Shown: in pieces, positions 2,887-13,482 of the stretch
Numbering within the stretch: the stretch's first letter is position 1
Layout of the letters: every line of letters begins with the position of its first letter
DNA from: a virus
Virus record (IMG/VR): IMGVR_UViG_3300007522_000076
Coordinates: 1-21,763 of that record
DNA: 21,763 bases
Reading direction: 5' to 3' (one strand)
The notes under the pieces: model-generated
Told to the model about the DNA's origin: nothing
The model's input: only the letters and a program-made list of their open reading frames with translations
Databases searched by the model: none
Position numbers and translations under genes: made by a program

Positions 2887-2968
2887 TTAACTATAGTTAA
2901 AGAGTTAAGTATAGTTATAAAAGAAAAAGAAATTGATTGTAAGAAGTAGTTGTTCTAAGTATAATTAG
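2887..2968. promoter_or_regulatory. Three related palindromes: candidate repressor operators
   Basis: TTAACTATAGTTAA at 2887-2900 is a perfect 14-base palindrome. TTAAGTATAGTTAT at 2905-2918 and CTAAGTATAATTAG at 2955-2968 are imperfect copies of the same design (TAA, S, TATA, R, TTA). The third copy contains the TATAAT -10 box of the early promoter, so a protein bound there would block it. Spacing between the first two is 18 bases start to start. No repressor gene adjoins them; the regulator may be encoded outside the window. Confidence 0.5.
2937..2965 (+). promoter_or_regulatory. Rightward early promoter for the replication operon
   Basis: TTGTAA at 2937-2942 and a perfect TATAAT at 2960-2965 with a 17-base spacer. 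Transcription would begin about 2972, giving a short leader with AAGGAA just before the primase ATG at 3007. The -10 lies inside the third operator-like palindrome. Confidence 0.65.
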
Positions 2969-3006
2969 AGAGTAATAAAAACAAATAGATAGATAAGGAA
3001 GAGTGT

Positions 3007-4695
3007 ATGAAATCATGGGCAGACTTAGGGATAGATCTTAAGGGGCACACAAGTGGTCAGATTAAAACCACATGTCCTAATTGCTCCGAGTCCCGCAAGA
3101 AGAAGTCATACCCCTGCTTGAATGTAAACGTAGATCAGGGTGTATATAACTGCTGGCATTGTGGCTGGGCGGGTGGGGTTGGAAAAGGATTGTTTATGCA
3201 AACAAATAAAAAGCAGTATCGTATTCCAGAATTCAAACCAAAGATGTTGACTGATTCAGCGCTGACATTTCTACAAGAGCGTGGCATAACTCCAGAGGTT
3301 GTAGCTCGCAATCAAGTTTCTATAGACAAGAAGTACTTCCCTCAGACAGAGAAAGAATATCCTTGCTTGGCATTCCCTTTCATCAAAGCCGGGCAGATTG
3401 TCAACGTTAAGTATCGCACAAGGGACAAGTACTTTACCCAAGAAAGCGGTGCTGAAAAAACTTGGTACAAGTACGATGACATTGACCCTAAGTGCACGAT
3501 CATTACTGAGGGTGAGTTCGATGCACTATCCTTTGAGGTTGCAGGTTATCGCAGCGCTATCTCTGTGCCTGACGGAGCGCCCGCTATTGAGGCTAAATCA
3601 TTTGACCGTAAGTTCACCTACATCGACGTCGAAGATCCTGCTATAGAGGCTGTAGAGAAGTTTATATTGGCCGTTGACAATGATGCTCCGGGCCGCAGGC
3701 TTGAAGAAGAGTTGGCGCGTAGGCTTGGCAAAGACAGGTGCTATAGAGTCAAGTGGCCTGAAGGTTGCAAGGATGCCAATGAGTTGCTGCTTATGGCTGG
3801 GCCGGGGGCGCTTGCTAACCTAGTCAAGTTCTCAGAACCCTACCCAGTTGACGGCATCTTTGAGCTTGAATCTTTTGCTGCTGACCTAGATGCTATCTAT
3901 CAGAACGGTTTACCCGCTGGGCTCGAGACTGGGTGGGACAACTTAGATTCTTTCTACAGACCTATGGATGGGCAGTGGACATTGGTGACAGGTGTGCCGG
4001 GCATGGGTAAGTCAGAGTGGTTAGATGCTCTGGCTATGAATCTTACATCCAAGCATGGCTGGATATTCGGAGTCTGCTCACCAGAGAATCAACCTGTTAC
4101 CTATCATGCAGCTAAGCTCATGGAAAAGTATGCCGGGAAACGTCTACACAAGATGACGCCACAAGAGTATGCCGATTCTAAAGAGTGGGTCAATCAATTC
4201 TTTAAATTTATTTTGCCAGAAGATAGAACCCTCGAAGGTGTACTTGAGAAGGCCAAGCTATTAGTGCGCCGCTATGGCATGAAGGGCTTGATCCTTGACC
4301 CATACAACGAGATTACACACACCAATAGACGTGATGGCATTAGTGAGACTGAGTACATCTCTGATTTCTTGGCACAGATTAGGGGCTTCGCTCGCATGAT
4401 GGGCATCCACATTTGGTTAGTGGCACACCCTACTAAGCTACAGAAACGAGACGATGGTACATACCCCGTGCCTACAGGCTACGATGTTGCAGGGTCAGCG
4501 CACTTCTTTAACAAGGCAGACAACATCATTGCTGTACATAGGGATAAGAGCAACCCAACCTCATTCTCTGAGGTGCATATACAAAAGATTAGGTCGCGTT
4601 GGCTAGGTCAAATTGGCACAGTCTATCTTGATTGGGATAAAAACTGCGGTAGATACACCGTACCGCCGGGACATGGGGAGTCATTCATAAGATGA
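3007..4695 (+). CDS. T7 gp4/Twinkle-like DNA primase-helicase
   Basis: A 562-residue two-domain replication protein. The N-terminus has a zinc-binding primase domain with Cys23, Cys26, Cys49 and Cys52. A TOPRIM primase core follows, with TEGEFDAL (E168, D172) and the acidic pair in AVDNDAPG (D224, D226). The C-terminal half is a DnaB/RecA-fold helicase with Walker A GVPGMGKS (residues 329-336, K335), Walker B LILDPYNE (D431), the H4-like WLVAHPTK and the basic loop RSRWLGQ. It should unwind DNA 5'-3' at the fork and prime lagging-strand synthesis. Length and order match T7 gp4. It is the first gene of the right early operon, with AAGGAA before the ATG. Its TGA overlaps the next start as ATGA. 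Confidence 0.93.
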   Translation: MKSWADLGIDLKGHTSGQIKTTCPNCSESRKKKSYPCLNVNVDQGVYNCWHCGWAGGVGKGLFMQTNKKQYRIPEFKPKMLTDSALTFLQERGITPEVVARNQVSIDKKYFPQTEKEYPCLAFPFIKAGQIVNVKYRTRDKYFTQESGAEKTWYKYDDIDPKCTIITEGEFDALSFEVAGYRSAISVPDGAPAIEAKSFDRKFTYIDVEDPAIEAVEKFILAVDNDAPGRRLEEELARRLGKDRCYRVKWPEGCKDANELLLMAGPGALANLVKFSEPYPVDGIFELESFAADLDAIYQNGLPAGLETGWDNLDSFYRPMDGQWTLVTGVPGMGKSEWLDALAMNLTSKHGWIFGVCSPENQPVTYHAAKLMEKYAGKRLHKMTPQEYADSKEWVNQFFKFILPEDRTLEGVLEKAKLLVRRYGMKGLILDPYNEITHTNRRDGISETEYISDFLAQIRGFARMMGIHIWLVAHPTKLQKRDDGTYPVPTGYDVAGSAHFFNKADNIIAVHRDKSNPTSFSEVHIQKIRSRWLGQIGTVYLDWDKNCGRYTVPPGHGESFIR

Positions 4696-5648: not shown

Positions 5649-6072
5649 CAGTAGACGCAAAGGCAGCACAGGCGAGACGGAACTAATCCACAGCCTTGAG
5701 GCATTTATCCCAGAGCTGCTAGGCAAGTTGGCACGCAACCTAGAGCAGACAAGGTGGGGTGGCTACGACATTACAGGGCTGGATGGCTGGGCTCCAGAGG
5801 TTAAGAGGTGCGCCAAGTTCTTGCCATCAGGTATGGTTAGGCATTGGAAGCAAGCAGTAGATCAGTCACGGAAAGAACGTCTGCGCCCTGTCTTGTTTTA
5901 CCGAGCTGACCGATCTGAATGGAGGGTAGTCATGAGATTGATTGATGTAGTGGGCACGGAAAGATTGCCTGCCATGGATTTTTTTAATGATGAACTCAAC
6001 AACTTTGATTTCACATTGGATATGTCATTGAAGTCTGCATCGCATTTGATTAGGAAGAGCCTCGATGTTTAA
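5638..6072 (+). CDS. Holliday-junction-resolvase-like PD-(D/E)XK endonuclease
   Basis: A 144-residue nuclease with the layout of small phage and archaeal Hjc-type resolvases. A basic start RRKGSTGETE supplies the first acidic residue (E13), GGYDI has D44 and APEVKRC has the E54-x-K56 pair of the PD-(D/E)XK core. A following helix contains HWKQAVDQS (Q72), as in nucleases of the same fold, then a strand PVLFYRADRSEW. It should cut branched DNA from recombination or replication before packaging. The frame extends upstream to 5581, but the ATG at 5638 matches the usual family start and just overlaps the previous stop. In lambdoid phages a resolvase gene sits at this place before Q. Confidence 0.75.
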   Translation: MKINSRRKGSTGETELIHSLEAFIPELLGKLARNLEQTRWGGYDITGLDGWAPEVKRCAKFLPSGMVRHWKQAVDQSRKERLRPVLFYRADRSEWRVVMRLIDVVGTERLPAMDFFNDELNNFDFTLDMSLKSASHLIRKSLDV

Positions 6073-6550
6073 CTCACCTGAACAGGCGCTATCGTTTGCG
6101 TTTCGTGTGCGTCAGTACGATGTGTTAAGCGTACCTAGTGCTATGTATAACTCCAAGCAAGCGCACTCTACTAACAGAGAAGAGAGGTTAAGTCAGTATG
6201 ATTTACATGCACAGTCAGGTTTAATTTTTTCTTGGTTGTCACGTAGACCTTTCGATGAGCAGATCTATGCGTTCTTAATCCACGGAAATAACGTAGAGCG
6301 AAGAACTGCGGCGTTGTTGTTTGCTCGGCAGAGCAAAGCGATGCTAAAGAAGTTCGGGTTAAGTAACTATGCATTGCGTCAAGCTATTTTGGGAGGCACA
6401 GTGAGGGAGGTGTCCGCCGATTCGGGACTGTCTCACTATAGGGCATGGAAGTTTAGACGTGAGTTGGCAGGTTTCTTGCTACCAATACAGGACAGGCTTA
6501 TGAGTGCAATGTACGATGAGCTTATTGACCTATCGCACACTGCATCATAA
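6065..6550 (+). CDS. Putative late regulator with helix-turn-helix (Q-like position)
   Basis: A 161-residue protein, last gene of the right early operon, overlapping the resolvase-like gene by 8 bases. Residues 103-134 read as a helix-turn-helix (ALRQAILGG, VREVSADSG, LSHYRAWKFRREL), which suggests DNA binding. The N-terminal half is helical without a known motif. Seven bases after its stop comes a perfect promoter followed at once by a terminator. In lambdoid phages this is the place of the antiterminator gene Q, acting on pR' and tR'. I did not recognise a Q family by sequence, so the assignment rests on HTH-like residues and position. A plain transcription activator is the other possibility. 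Confidence 0.5.
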   Translation: MFNSPEQALSFAFRVRQYDVLSVPSAMYNSKQAHSTNREERLSQYDLHAQSGLIFSWLSRRPFDEQIYAFLIHGNNVERRTAALLFARQSKAMLKKFGLSNYALRQAILGGTVREVSADSGLSHYRAWKFRRELAGFLLPIQDRLMSAMYDELIDLSHTAS

Positions 6551-6556
6551 TCAGAT

Positions 6557-6585
6557 TTGACATATAGATATTGTATGAATATAAT
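6557..6585 (+). promoter_or_regulatory. Perfect-consensus sigma70 promoter
   Basis: TTGACA at 6557-6562, a 17-base spacer and TATAAT at 6580-6585: a full match to the sigma70 consensus at both boxes and in spacing. It points right, away from the HTH gene and towards the terminator at 6624-6653. Transcription should start at about 6592. Confidence 0.88.
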
Positions 6586-6591
6586 TATTGC

Positions 6592-6653
6592 ACTCTCCTT
6601 ACTTGGTCCCCTCAACCAAGTTCACCCCGGCTTATCACCGGGGTTTTTTTTTT
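6592..6653 (+). ncRNA. Predicted short phage RNA with anti-Shine-Dalgarno 5' end
   Basis: The perfect promoter would begin an RNA near 6592 that ends in the T-run at 6644-6653, about 60 nt long. The 5' end is unstructured and reads CUCUCCUUA (6593-6601), whose last seven bases equal the anti-SD end of 16S rRNA. Next is a hairpin with arms ACTTGGT (6601-6607) and ACCAAGT (6615-6621), then the terminator hairpin. No open frame fits. It may be a regulatory RNA that pairs with SD sequences such as AAGGAGAG before erf and at 10632-10637, or a lambda 6S-like RNA left by a promoter waiting for antitermination. Promoter and terminator are clear; the function is inferred. Confidence 0.6.
6624..6653 (+). 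terminator. Rho-independent terminator
   Basis: ACCCCGG at 6624-6630 pairs perfectly with CCGGGGT at 6638-6644 around a 7-base loop, followed by an uninterrupted run of 10 T at 6644-6653. It ends the right early operon and the short RNA. The TAA of the converging gene at 6652 overlaps the T-run. Confidence 0.92.
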
Positions 6654-7002
6654 ACATTCTGCCAACCTTTTCTCTAAATTCAACAGGGACTTGATGAATG
6701 TTGCAAGGCAGTAAGTTCTGATCTTGTATAGCAAAGTATGTAATCAATTGAGCATTGGTATTGCATGAACCCATGAGTGTTTGTCTTAACTGCAAGTCAG
6801 CTGTCGAGAGCATATAGTACAAAGTTTCTCTTATCTCACCTGCTACTATCTGGCCTAAGATTTTAACAAAGAAAGCAGTGTTGTCATTAACACCTTGAAT
6901 CATCTTATAATCTCTGATGTTTTGTCTGTACAAGCAGAACAGCTCGTTGACTTCATCGTACCGATTGATATAGGTTTGTGCTTGTTTGTGTATGCTAGCC
7001 AT
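6652..7002 (-). CDS. Hypothetical protein downstream of the amidotransferase
   Basis: A 116-residue, mostly helical protein (beginning MASIHKQAQTYINRY), last gene of the minus-strand cassette. Two cysteines (Leu-Phe-Cys-Leu and GSCNTNAQ) are not arranged as a known motif, and I recognise no family. It lies 10 bases after the amidotransferase gene, so they are co-transcribed and may work together. TAAGGAGA stands 6 bases before the ATG; this string is complementary to the 5' end of the short RNA encoded just beyond on the other strand. Its stop codon overlaps the terminator T-run. Confidence 0.72.
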   Translation of the reverse strand: MASIHKQAQTYINRYDEVNELFCLYRQNIRDYKMIQGVNDNTAFFVKILGQIVAGEIRETLYYMLSTADLQLRQTLMGSCNTNAQLITYFAIQDQNLLPCNIHQVPVEFREKVGRM

Positions 7003-7012
7003 GTGTTTCTCC

Positions 7013-8035
7013 TTAGGTTATGTTGGCAATAGACTTGAGTTTCTTCTCGTGCTGAAACCATAAGTCTATAATTTCTGCTGCTGCATCGGCTGGTGTATTG
7101 ATTACATAATCAACCGAATCCAAGTACGAGAAGGTTTGGTCTTTCTGTATCTGAGCTACCTCGTATATGAACCTTGCTGCCATCTTAGGTTCATCTAAAG
7201 CCCAATCGAATGCACCTTCTTCTCCGCGTTCTTCAACGCGCTTGTAACAAGTCTTAATCAAATGCTTAAGCGCGTTCTTGCTGATAGGTCTGATGATACC
7301 AACCTTAACCTTTGCTGGCTCTACTTGATATTCGCTAGCAAGAGGCAGTGACAGATCAGTATCGTTAGTAACATCTAATGCATCCCATGCTTTCCATGTG
7401 GGTGATGTGCCATAGTACTTAGGATTCCAGACACGAGTTGATGTCTGAGGGTATTGGTATGCAGGTTCTTTGCCGTATCCAAACTTCCATGGAGTCCAGG
7501 CGTATGTATTGGAATACCATACATCGTTATGAACAATACCAGCATCTTTGTTAATGATGACAACTGCACCCTGTTCATCCATGAATGCAAACTTATTGGA
7601 TGCACCTATGCTATCTTCTATCAATGCTTGGAAGCCATGGTTGTGAATCATACTAGGGTCACGCGATAAGATAGGACGCAAATGCGTTTGAATAAACTGC
7701 CATGTGTCTGACATCTTTGGATCTATGTTATTACCTTGGCGCAAGATACCATTGTGTGCCATCCACAAGCCGGGTATAACTTCATAAGGGTGACAGTTAG
7801 CTAAGTTAATCTCGCCATGTGTTTTCATACGCAAGTGTATGATTGCTTCTTTGCCTGCTACTTCTTTGTTGTATAGAGCGTTGATTTCTGCAAGCGTGCC
7901 TACTGATTTAATTACTTCTACAGTAGCGCCATCCTTGACGATAGCTCCGAAACCATCTGAGTTGCTGTAATAAAAGTCTGCGATCTGCTCTGAAGAGAAG
8001 ACGGTGTTTTTTGGATGATGAATGAGTATGCACAT
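7013..8035 (-). CDS. Class II glutamine amidotransferase (Ntn hydrolase)
   Basis: A 340-residue protein. The N-terminal 170 or so residues match class II glutamine amidotransferases: Cys2 directly after the initiator Met as nucleophile, SDGFGAI (26-32), the HLRMKTHG strand (67-74), NCHPYEV (80-86) and AHNGIL (94-99, oxyanion Asn95). It should release ammonia from glutamine for a partner synthetase. No synthetase domain is fused; the remaining 170 residues are of unknown type. Its stop is near-adjacent to the next gene, and the amidoligase gene ends 13 bases before its ATG, with AAGGAG in the gap. That pairing is known from phage and bacterial peptide-modification clusters and suggests the two act together. 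Substrate is unknown. Confidence 0.85.
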   Translation of the reverse strand: MCILIHHPKNTVFSSEQIADFYYSNSDGFGAIVKDGATVEVIKSVGTLAEINALYNKEVAGKEAIIHLRMKTHGEINLANCHPYEVIPGLWMAHNGILRQGNNIDPKMSDTWQFIQTHLRPILSRDPSMIHNHGFQALIEDSIGASNKFAFMDEQGAVVIINKDAGIVHNDVWYSNTYAWTPWKFGYGKEPAYQYPQTSTRVWNPKYYGTSPTWKAWDALDVTNDTDLSLPLASEYQVEPAKVKVGIIRPISKNALKHLIKTCYKRVEERGEEGAFDWALDEPKMAARFIYEVAQIQKDQTFSYLDSVDYVINTPADAAAEIIDLWFQHEKKLKSIANIT

Positions 8036-8048
8036 TGATAGCTCCTTA

Positions 8049-9536
8049 TTAAGCTGCTAAGTTTTCTAGGTCTGTTGTGTCAGAATTGACGGCACTGATT
8101 GATAAATATTTTCTTAAGTATTTTGTATCTTCTAAGTTGTCTGGCAAAGCTATGAACGCCTTGAACCCTTCGCTATTAAAGTCTTTGATAGATACATTGC
8201 CCGGCGTACAAAAATCTAACAGTGCGTTTACAAATTGCAACGCAGCCGCTATTGATTCGTACCTAAGAGACCCTCTGAATACTCTGAACTCTATTGTGTT
8301 TCTACTTGTGATGTTGACCACGTCATAACGACTTTCACTTCCTTTGTTATAAGGTGACATCTTGCCCATAGATGGATGTACTTGGCTGTAACCATTGCTA
8401 TATCTACGAGCGATCTTTTTGATAAGCACTTCATTCTCTCGGTTGTGCATAAAAGATTGGATGCGAAAGATTTGAGTTTGACTTAAACATTCTCTGTCTA
8501 CGTGTACATGAAAGCCGCATGACCCACTTTCATGTGAGCGCATACCCTGCTTAGCTGCATCGTTAGTTAAGAAAGCTTTAAACTTTTCAAGGTGAACATC
8601 CAATCCTGCTGGTTGTGTCACAATCTCAAAGCCATTTTGTACTGAGCCATCTCTCTCGAAGTAGCAGTACTCACCAGATTCTAAACTAGGATTTAATATT
8701 TCATGTATCCGACCAGCAGCTTTTGCTTTCTGTGTGTTAGTTGTACTGCCTTTAAGTTCTACCTCTAACTCGCAACCAAACAAACGTTTGTGAGACTTAA
8801 ACCAAGGCGACAGTATCTTGTTGAAGCCGTGGCGCTTACTGCTGTGGTAGTCACCTATCAGTCCTTGATACGGGTTGTAATCAAGAGACTCATACCGTCC
8901 ACGCATATCTGAATAAACCATTGCTGGGTTGCGTACATCAGTAGACATAGGCCCTTGATTTGTATAAATCGTCACGTGATTAGCGAGCGATATAAAGTAA
9001 TCGTTTGATCTTACCCATAGGTCAGACCCATTCATCCTTTCAGCGCAATCGGCACATACATGATGTATGCGATGATAGTTTTCACTATCTCTGTAGTGAC
9101 CACTGTCTACACCCCAATGCCCACAATCCATTTCCATTACGTTGTAAGAACTTAAAGCTGCAGTAATAAAGTTCTTGTCATTTACAAAAGCTTCTGCATG
9201 TTTATTGGCAGTATGAACTGCATGATCGCTAGTGATTGTGCTCCTGTGAGTTGAAACTAAATCGATCATAAACAAAGCTTTCATTGCACCCTTTGGTGAA
9301 TTAGACTGTAATGATTCGACTTCGATTCTCAAACAAGAAATGAATTGATTTAACTTGTTTTGATCTAATGTGTACTTAACTGCAAACAATTCAACCAAGT
9401 ACTGGTTTTTGCTGGCTGTTCTGCCACCAGCTTGAGACATAGCTTTGACAAGTTTCTTGGCACTCTCTTTAATGTATGCCAAGTTGTGAAGGGAAAGATT
9501 GTTTATGTTGCTTCTGAGTTCATCGAATGTATGCAT
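8049..9536 (-). CDS. Amidoligase (carboxylate-amine ligase) with N-terminal zinc-binding region
   Basis: A 495-residue protein. Residues about 250-480 fit the amidoligase family (Pfam Amidoligase_2, glutamine-synthetase-like fold, ATP-dependent amide bond formation): FGCELEVEL (E256, E258) opens the core, ERDGSVQNGFEIVTQP (D296, E304) follows, then GSCGFHVHVD (H343, H345, D347) and NTIEFRVFRGSL (E416, R418), which hold metal- and ATP-binding positions. The first 240 residues carry a zinc-knuckle-like set, DCGH (C138, H140) and CADC (C161, C164), and a helical N-terminus of unknown role. Such enzymes are predicted to attach amino acids or amines to peptides or cell-wall material. The glutamine amidotransferase encoded next probably provides ammonia or trims the product. 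TAGGAGAT precedes the start. Confidence 0.83.
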   Translation of the reverse strand: MHTFDELRSNINNLSLHNLAYIKESAKKLVKAMSQAGGRTASKNQYLVELFAVKYTLDQNKLNQFISCLRIEVESLQSNSPKGAMKALFMIDLVSTHRSTITSDHAVHTANKHAEAFVNDKNFITAALSSYNVMEMDCGHWGVDSGHYRDSENYHRIHHVCADCAERMNGSDLWVRSNDYFISLANHVTIYTNQGPMSTDVRNPAMVYSDMRGRYESLDYNPYQGLIGDYHSSKRHGFNKILSPWFKSHKRLFGCELEVELKGSTTNTQKAKAAGRIHEILNPSLESGEYCYFERDGSVQNGFEIVTQPAGLDVHLEKFKAFLTNDAAKQGMRSHESGSCGFHVHVDRECLSQTQIFRIQSFMHNRENEVLIKKIARRYSNGYSQVHPSMGKMSPYNKGSESRYDVVNITSRNTIEFRVFRGSLRYESIAAALQFVNALLDFCTPGNVSIKDFNSEGFKAFIALPDNLEDTKYLRKYLSISAVNSDTTDLENLAA

Positions 9537-9965: not shown

Positions 9966-10235
9966 TTAAAAAGAAGAGATGTGTTTAATGACTACACAAC
10001 AGTTGTTATGCAATCCAGAAGCTTCACATTGAGTAAAGAATGTTCCTTCTAATTCTTCAAAGCTAAAGACTGCATCTTTGCTATAGACTTTATCCCACCA
10101 TAGATTTAACTCATGTACTTCCCAACCCTCCAGTCCTGAGAAGTCATTGTTTACAATCGCGGAAAGATACTGCTTGCCTAGAGAATATTTAATAATTGTT
10201 GTGTCAGTGCCAAGACTTGTGTGTAAGCTCATCAT
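9966..10235 (-). CDS. Hypothetical protein
   Basis: An 89-residue protein with a mixed alpha/beta look and a tryptophan-rich middle (EGWEVHELNLWWDKVY). Its C-terminus has three cysteines (QCEASGLHNNCCVVIKH). This pattern suggests a small soluble protein, but I recognise no family. Two ATG codons in tandem (10235 and 10232) overlap the stop of the preceding gene, with GAGG just upstream. The GC hairpin at 9902-9938 follows it. Confidence 0.6.
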   Translation of the reverse strand: MMSLHTSLGTDTTIIKYSLGKQYLSAIVNNDFSGLEGWEVHELNLWWDKVYSKDAVFSFEELEGTFFTQCEASGLHNNCCVVIKHISSF

Positions 10236-10624
10236 GGCTTGACCTCTTCAATCGAGTACTCTTGCAGTTTATACTTAGGAATCTTTTGAGTTGTTGCTAC
10301 AGATTCTTTAGCTGCTGCGTAAGCCTCTTTAACATTGACACCCTTAGCCTTTACCGTTACTACATTGGGTGCGAGGATCGCTAAGGTTACGTTGTAAGTT
10401 TTGATAACCTTCGACTGTGCAAAGCTGGTCTTCAGTCGATCTTTTGTTTCATCTATCAGCATGGCTACAACTTCAATAGGTAGATGCTTGGAATGTTCTT
10501 TCACGGCCACAACATCCAGCACATCTAGCTTCTTCCACATAATGCTTTGTATATCTTGATAGTCCATTGTCCTATCGTATGCATCTAAGAACATATCTAG
10601 TGCAAACTTTTGATACTTATCCAT
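10232..10624 (-). CDS. Hypothetical two-part protein
   Basis: A 130-residue protein. The N-terminal half is helical (KYQKFALDMFLDAYDRT; IEVVAMLIDETKDRL); the C-terminal half looks like a small beta-alpha-beta unit (KTYNVTLAILAPNVVTVKA, then KEAYAAAKESV). No family recognised. AAGGAG at 10632-10637 precedes GTG, ATG and ATG in tandem (10630, 10627, 10624); the last has the best spacing of 7 bases. The same AAGGAGA-R-TGATGATG arrangement occurs at the start of the gene at 110. The stop overlaps the next start. Confidence 0.65.
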   Translation of the reverse strand: MDKYQKFALDMFLDAYDRTMDYQDIQSIMWKKLDVLDVVAVKEHSKHLPIEVVAMLIDETKDRLKTSFAQSKVIKTYNVTLAILAPNVVTVKAKGVNVKEAYAAAKESVATTQKIPKYKLQEYSIEEVKP

Positions 10625-10643
10625 CATCACTCTCCTTGTCTGT

Positions 10644-12615: not shown

Positions 12616-12666
12616 GACGTATACCTTTGAGACGTAGTTGGCTGTTAAACAAAATTGATAACAGAA

Positions 12667-13407: not shown

Positions 13408-13482
13408 GGCGGGGTGGCGCAGTAGTAGCGCATCGGACTCATAATCCGGGGGTCGGGGGTGCAATTCCTTCTCCCGCAACCA
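13408..13482 (+). tRNA. tRNA-Met(CAT), initiator (fMet)-like, CCA encoded
   Basis: A complete cloverleaf can be drawn by hand over 75 bases. Acceptor GGCGGGG pairs with TCCCGCA except at the first pair (G1 against A72). D-stem GCGC/GCGC has a short 7-base loop. Anticodon stem TCGGA/TCCGG has loop CTCATAA with anticodon CAT at 13440-13442. T-stem GGGGG/CCTTC has loop TGCAATT, then A and CCA at 13480-13482. The unpaired 1-72 position, the anticodon loop and the 3' end CCCGCAACCA match bacterial initiator tRNA. Differences: G1 instead of C1, A31:T39 in place of the third G:C pair, a short D-loop and G instead of T at position 55. It may be functional or a divergent decoy. Confidence 0.88.

Follow-up and report, generated by a model that had tools for sequence, protein, structure and literature searches.

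Organization of the locus

The window (the whole analysed stretch of 21,763 nt of viral DNA) contains a rightward block composed of genes for a DNA primase/helicase (3007-4695, + strand; PHROG 239, E 1.2e-86), an HNH protein, two small proteins, a RusA/PDDEXK-like protein and a 161-aa protein (6065-6550, + strand). The primase/helicase gene is the first of this operon and the 161-aa gene, a predicted AlpA/Q-like antiterminator, the last. The primase operon has a candidate promoter (TTGTAA-N17-TATAAT) at 2937-2965 (+ strand). Upstream of the primase gene there is also an above-threshold match to RF02932 (Betaproteobacteria-1 RNA; 2684-2805, + strand), as in relatives L021 (7722-7843), L018 (7720-7841), L023 (7635-7757), L022 (7592-7717) and L038 (7722-7852); the RF02932 element has the appearance of a 5' leader belonging to the replication operon. 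In L042, L045, L054 and L060, a promoter of the type TTGACA-N17/18-TATACT was found 270-330 nt before the primase gene.

Six bases separate the stop codon of the 161-aa gene from the TTGACA of a sigma-70 promoter (6557-6585, + strand; TTGACA at 6557-6562, N17, TATAAT at 6580-6585). As claimed in an earlier note on this DNA, it is a full-consensus promoter (12/12 positions), and the sole 12/12 site among the matches listed. When one mismatch or less was allowed, the promoter pattern had 2 matches in the window vs 0.19 in shuffled sequences, and the 6557 promoter outscored each of the 661 other stretches of 110 nt in its own locus. Judging from the spacing to the -10 element, transcription would start near A6592. 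The promoter, the fold and a covariance model match point to a small RNA of about 60 nt (6592-6653, + strand), whose predicted structure (-20 kcal/mol, z -4.7) comprises an unpaired 5' end, hairpin 1 (6601-6621, + strand) and an intrinsic terminator (6624-6653, + strand) made up of a hairpin (6624-6644) and a T run. The two hairpins and the strong terminator soon after the promoter, also described in the earlier note, were thereby recovered.

This terminator is the only strong + strand one in the first 16 kb of the window. Leftward genes begin directly behind it, and the element thus sits between the rightward and leftward blocks. Adjoining genes for an amidoligase-like and a class-II glutamine amidotransferase-like protein (7013-9536, - strand) are kept in relatives, and this pair possibly serves surface or peptide modification.

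The single-stranded segment at the 5' end of the RNA, hereafter the seed (CACUCUCCUUA; 6591-6601, + strand), is the counterpart of UACCCUUC in relatives, as indicated by the folds, the covariance model and the pairing described below. It carries the CUCCUUA reported previously as an anti-Shine-Dalgarno (anti-SD) sequence, which is identical to the 3' end of E. coli 16S rRNA; the 16S rRNA of betaproteobacteria ends in CCUCCUUUCU. The complementary strings listed together with it are indeed present: AAGGAGAG precedes both erf and the gene whose start is at about 10630, and TAAGGAGA precedes the gene at 7002. A more telling match had been overlooked, namely UAAGGAaGAGUG before the primase gene (2994-3005).

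Conservation of the RNA in related viruses

Scanning for the 161-aa protein and for the primase identified about 40 viral loci that carry this protein. Directly 3' of the same gene, 14 distinct relatives contain an RNA core consisting, in this order, of ACCCUUC (ACCCUAC in one of them), a small hairpin, a U-rich linker and a terminator. A covariance model from which the window sequence had been left out gave the window RNA as its best non-member match (24.2 bits; E 4e-4 for the window and 0.005 for 250 kb). The helix pairs displayed 27 two-sided changes vs 8.4 in shuffles, with such changes in all five pairs of hairpin 1, in an alignment that was adjusted to the structure and in which two weak matches due to chance are included. 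The seed was unpaired in all three core RNAs folded. Because the core occupies the same place in 14 relatives and its helices carry two-sided changes, the element is, on comparative grounds, a conserved RNA and more than a promoter plus terminator. Its site between the rightward and leftward gene blocks would suit a plain terminator for converging operons accompanied by a fortuitous promoter, a reading made most improbable by the covariation, the nearly invariant seed and the rank of the promoter.

At this position, promoters ranking in the top 0-1.2% for their locus were found again in L009/L010, L012/L013, L063-L067 and L073. Locus ranking revealed no evident clear promoter in much of the main group, and for this reason the main-group RNA may be cut from the 3' UTR of the operon. 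The RNA is absent altogether from L022/L061. A search of the phage collection gave no DNA match, and the sole hit in scans of genome contigs was a partial one, in a Nitrosospira MAG, and does not include the RNA. MT837798 was dropped as a relative, its match being antisense to a bacterial gene. The possibility that the RNA encodes a peptide was also rejected, as the ORF that begins with ATGAAGGGG in L045-L047 has no preserved counterpart in L042 or L048. In L009, L012 and L073, a different, longer leader was observed 50-200 nt after the AlpA-like gene; it contains a CACTA..TAGTG hairpin and a second hairpin with a conserved UGUAGCG loop, and in L073 an early terminator.

General anti-SD activity and similarity to RF02278

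The earlier note proposed that the RNA masks SD sites or acts as a decoy of the ribosome. A stable short RNA with an unpaired 5' end able to mask an SD is what the window encodes by prediction, and this part of the proposal stands; general masking does not. Seed energies calculated for all ribosome-binding sites (RBSs) of 18 contigs displayed no own-phage preference: on average, the window seed pairs with RBSs of its own contig no better than with those of other phages. General RBS masking was rejected on these grounds, and the ribosome decoy is not supported. Among the relatives, the hairpins are kept, while the anti-SD letters are replaced by ACCCUUC (13/14) or ACCCUAC (1/14), and a clear promoter is absent in much of the main group. 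With relatives keeping the locus and lacking the anti-SD stretch, the general version of the idea fails by the earlier note's own criterion.

A related reading is that of a general anti-SD RNA which masks many RBSs or titrates ribosomes, as a phage cousin of RF02278 (Betaproteobacteria toxic sRNA), known from Burkholderia as a toxic or double-hairpin sRNA (PMC5688073). It would account for the RF02278 matches found at this very position both in the window (25.7 bits) and in nine relatives (18-28.8 bits), all of which are below the gathering threshold of 50 and do not qualify these RNAs as members, and for the same overall plan (5' CU stretch, hairpin, terminator hairpin; PMC5688073). As the RF02278 search also produces matches in 11/14 control genomes, single matches mean little, and repetition at one locus means more. 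The RF02278 RNAs and Bordetella S17 (PMC5688073, PMC11722255) share with the window RNA its size, two hairpins and a CU-rich unpaired 5' end, but they are chromosomal host RNAs with other targets. Since ACCCUUC of the relatives is a poor general anti-SD, and the own RBSs are not bound preferentially, we consider this reading quite unlikely.

Complementarity to the primase RBS

What the relatives keep is, according to the sequence comparison, complementarity to the RBS of one gene, the primase/helicase. The proposed target in the window is UAAGGAaGAGUG (2994-3005, + strand), with which the seed pairs as CACUC-UCCUUA, leaving one bulged A. The corresponding pairs are UACCCUUCAU with AUGAAGGGUA in L044, CACUACCCUU with AAGGGUAGUG in L054, ACUUACCCUU with AAGGGUAAGU in L060, UAUACCCUU with AAGGGUAUA in L052, and ACCCUUCU with AGAAGGGU in L045-L047; perfect matches of 9-10 nt were found in L044, L052, L054 and L060.

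Because the idea of the primase RBS arose from seeking complements of ACCCUUC in these same data, swap and other-gene tests were run. When the RNAs of seven groups were permuted against the primase RBSs (kinship being ignored), 4 of the 5,040 arrangements did as well as the own RNAs, and 5/5,040 when run length was scored. Robustness was assessed by varying the seed (seven definitions) and the target window (three): most of the compact seeds gave 1-6/5,040, longer or one-sided seeds 11-62/5,040, and the worst result on leaving out one group at a time was 4/720. With 29 other segments taken from the primase gene and its surroundings, p never fell below 0.01. A screen of the RBSs of 16 orthologous genes, based on pairing energies that ignore accessibility, gave p of about 1e-4 for the primase, 0.007 for the next best gene (not significant after correction) and at least 0.096 for the others. 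The seed octamer or nonamer was found a single time in the DNA examined of L044, L045 and L054; so was its complement, which in each case is placed at the primase RBS. In 9/10 phages the primase ranks 1-3 among 22-40 genes.

The window match, taken alone, is only moderately unusual (it is equalled by 11/2,000 shuffled seeds, and an energy of -17 kcal/mol is reached in 1% of 33-nt stretches). Full-length cofolding gave the expected pairing only for an RNA starting at 6591, and a start at 6592 or 6593 led to another complex. The window seed pairs better with AAGGAGAGUG (10 nt; 10628-10637, - strand), the RBS of the gene at 10232-10630, than with the primase RBS; this second possible target precedes a gene that has no orthologues. 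The erf gene, with 8 complementary nt in the window, was rejected as a co-target (own vs swapped, p 0.19). For the distant groups L009-L012, L064 and L066, pairing with the primase RBS was not beyond chance and no co-variation was detected.

Inverted 8-9 bp copies at two transcription-control regions would look alike if they were DNA operators for one regulator, with no RNA-RNA pairing involved. We regard this as very unlikely: one copy always lies on the SD and the other in an unpaired linker, the extent of the match shifts between phages, the window pair is bulged, and there are few or no further copies.

The match to the primase RBS is absent from L051 and from the leaderless-looking groups L056-L058. 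In L057, L058 and probably L056, the distance between a promoter and the primase start is no more than about 36 nt, and the primase mRNA should consequently be leaderless. Primase mRNAs that seem leaderless, with such a close promoter and no SD, were noted in L029, L030 and L026 upstream of 8001, and in L028 upstream of 6121. L051 and L056-L058 keep the RNA and its seed despite the lost primase site, from which it would follow that in these groups the RNA must have another target or that the seed is used otherwise; a search for a target shared by the leaderless groups revealed none that was evident.

The AlpA-like protein and the late-promoter reading

No Pfam or PHROGs family match was obtained for the protein encoded at 6065-6550. 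An AlphaFold model of the 161-aa protein, based on five sequences (pLDDT 82), was compared with known structures. In a Foldseek search of the PDB, the AlpA-loaded and AlpA-loading complexes occupied ranks 1 and 2 (probability 1.00; TM 0.68 and 0.65; E 7.5e-3 and 2.6e-2). VIA gave Z 11.9 for AlpA-loaded and 12.2 for AlpA-loading, with lambda Q in the third row (Z 6.4); as Z near 13 can be background for helical proteins, what counts is the large gap between AlpA and all other rows, together with a match over the whole chain. The model thus assigns an AlpA-type fold to the protein. AlpA itself is said to have no homology to other antiterminators, and it lets RNA polymerase pass terminators that begin 54 and 26 nt downstream of the transcription start at its P. 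aeruginosa target promoters (PMC7969949). In the window the terminator starts about 32 nt after +1, which, by analogy, would be the geometry needed for AlpA action. The likeness to AlpA (PMC7969949, PMC9371919) therefore concerns the fold of the adjacent protein and a promoter with a close terminator; the window protein differs in having only 15-16% identity, and antitermination is a prediction here.

The AlpA fold and the matching geometry were the reasons for a first suggestion, according to which the element would be only a late promoter with a short terminated leader for the AlpA-like protein (cf. lambda pR'-tR' and P. aeruginosa alpB), and the RNA its by-product, with no function in trans. 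The good promoters which recur after the gene in the distant groups named above are in keeping with this. Possible candidates for a protein-binding element between -35 and -10 and for a -10-like pause element are the following: the spacer of the L012/L013 promoter carries GGGACA, resembling the AlpA element GGGACG; the spacer TATTCAAACAC is common to L009 and L073; and CACTCT of the window (6591-6596) shares A(+1) and T(+5) with CACGAT of alpB. Terminase is encoded downstream on the same strand in 11/11 long contigs, 7.5-14 kb away (one distance assumes circularity), and in eight of them, as in the window, this terminator is the sole strong + strand one between the AlpA-like gene and terminase. 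A tRNA-Met gene (CAT; 13408-13482, + strand) is located just before the terminase genes of the window. A second AlpA target before terminase was considered and discarded, there being no strong promoter or terminator nearby and no copy of the spacer; a 9/12 promoter site at 12627, before terminase, is within chance. A mere by-product, however, needs no co-varying hairpin 1, no almost invariant unpaired ACCCUUC and no co-varying complementarity to the primase RBS. Moreover, the promoter is weak in most of the main group, and 6-7 kb of leftward genes separate the element from the late genes. We therefore find it unlikely that the element is a late promoter and nothing else.

Comparison with known small RNAs and proposed mechanism

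Operon self-repression by OppZ and CarZ, the autoregulatory 3'-UTR sRNAs of Vibrio cholerae (PMC7398697), appears to be the nearest known mechanism. As with these, the RNA stems from the 3' end of an operon, lying directly after the last rightward gene in the window and in relatives, and it is predicted to pair with the transcript of its own operon and inhibit translation, the complementarity to the primase RBS being co-varying. The differences are that a phage replication operon is concerned here and that, while RNAs of the OppZ/CarZ type are released by RNase E and bound by Hfq, the window member has its own consensus promoter, which it seems to use instead of processing.

Among phage RNAs, StxS derives from a late-promoter transcript. 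A review of known phage sRNAs, VpdS, PreS, OOP, sar and StxS among them, describes StxS as acting as an sRNA that targets stx1 and rpoS, and lambda 6S as Hfq-dependent (PMC12197685). Both resemble the predicted window RNA in being short phage RNAs from an antiterminator/late-promoter region, but they belong to Q-type phages, and the predicted target here is the primase of the phage itself. The passages of the review considered here name no sRNA targeting the phage's own primase, and the word primase is absent from the whole review (PMC12197685); a non-exhaustive literature search on phage small RNAs and primase found no such case.

We regard it as fairly probable, on the strength of the sequence comparisons, that the element encodes a phage sRNA which represses its own replication operon via the primase RBS. 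The sRNA would come from the 3' end of the operon that runs from the primase to the AlpA-like gene. In the window phage a strong promoter of its own would drive it; in many relatives it may instead be cut from the 3' UTR. Its unpaired 5' seed would pair with the primase/helicase RBS and block translation, resulting in negative feedback on phage DNA replication. The AlpA-like antiterminator might in turn read through the terminator of the RNA and couple its output to the early/late switch. A tentative extension, which we hold to be possible though doubtful, is that the AlpA-like protein chooses the product of the promoter, making the replication feedback and the early/late switch one device. 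Without the protein, the terminated RNA would shut off the replication primase; with it, polymerase would read through, no sRNA would be released, and transcription would continue, antisense to the leftward genes, in the direction of the late genes.

There are few phage sRNAs whose target can be read from sequence, and here the co-variation across uncultured phages names the primase/helicase. The sRNA and its target appear to change together: the seed sequence was switched in the window phage, and the primase site was apparently lost when the primase mRNA became leaderless. The AlpA-like class of antiterminators has so far been known mainly from one Pseudomonas cell-death pathway. If the proposed mechanism is true, these phages would provide a viral example of an operon repressed by an sRNA from its own 3' end, adjoining an AlpA-like antiterminator.
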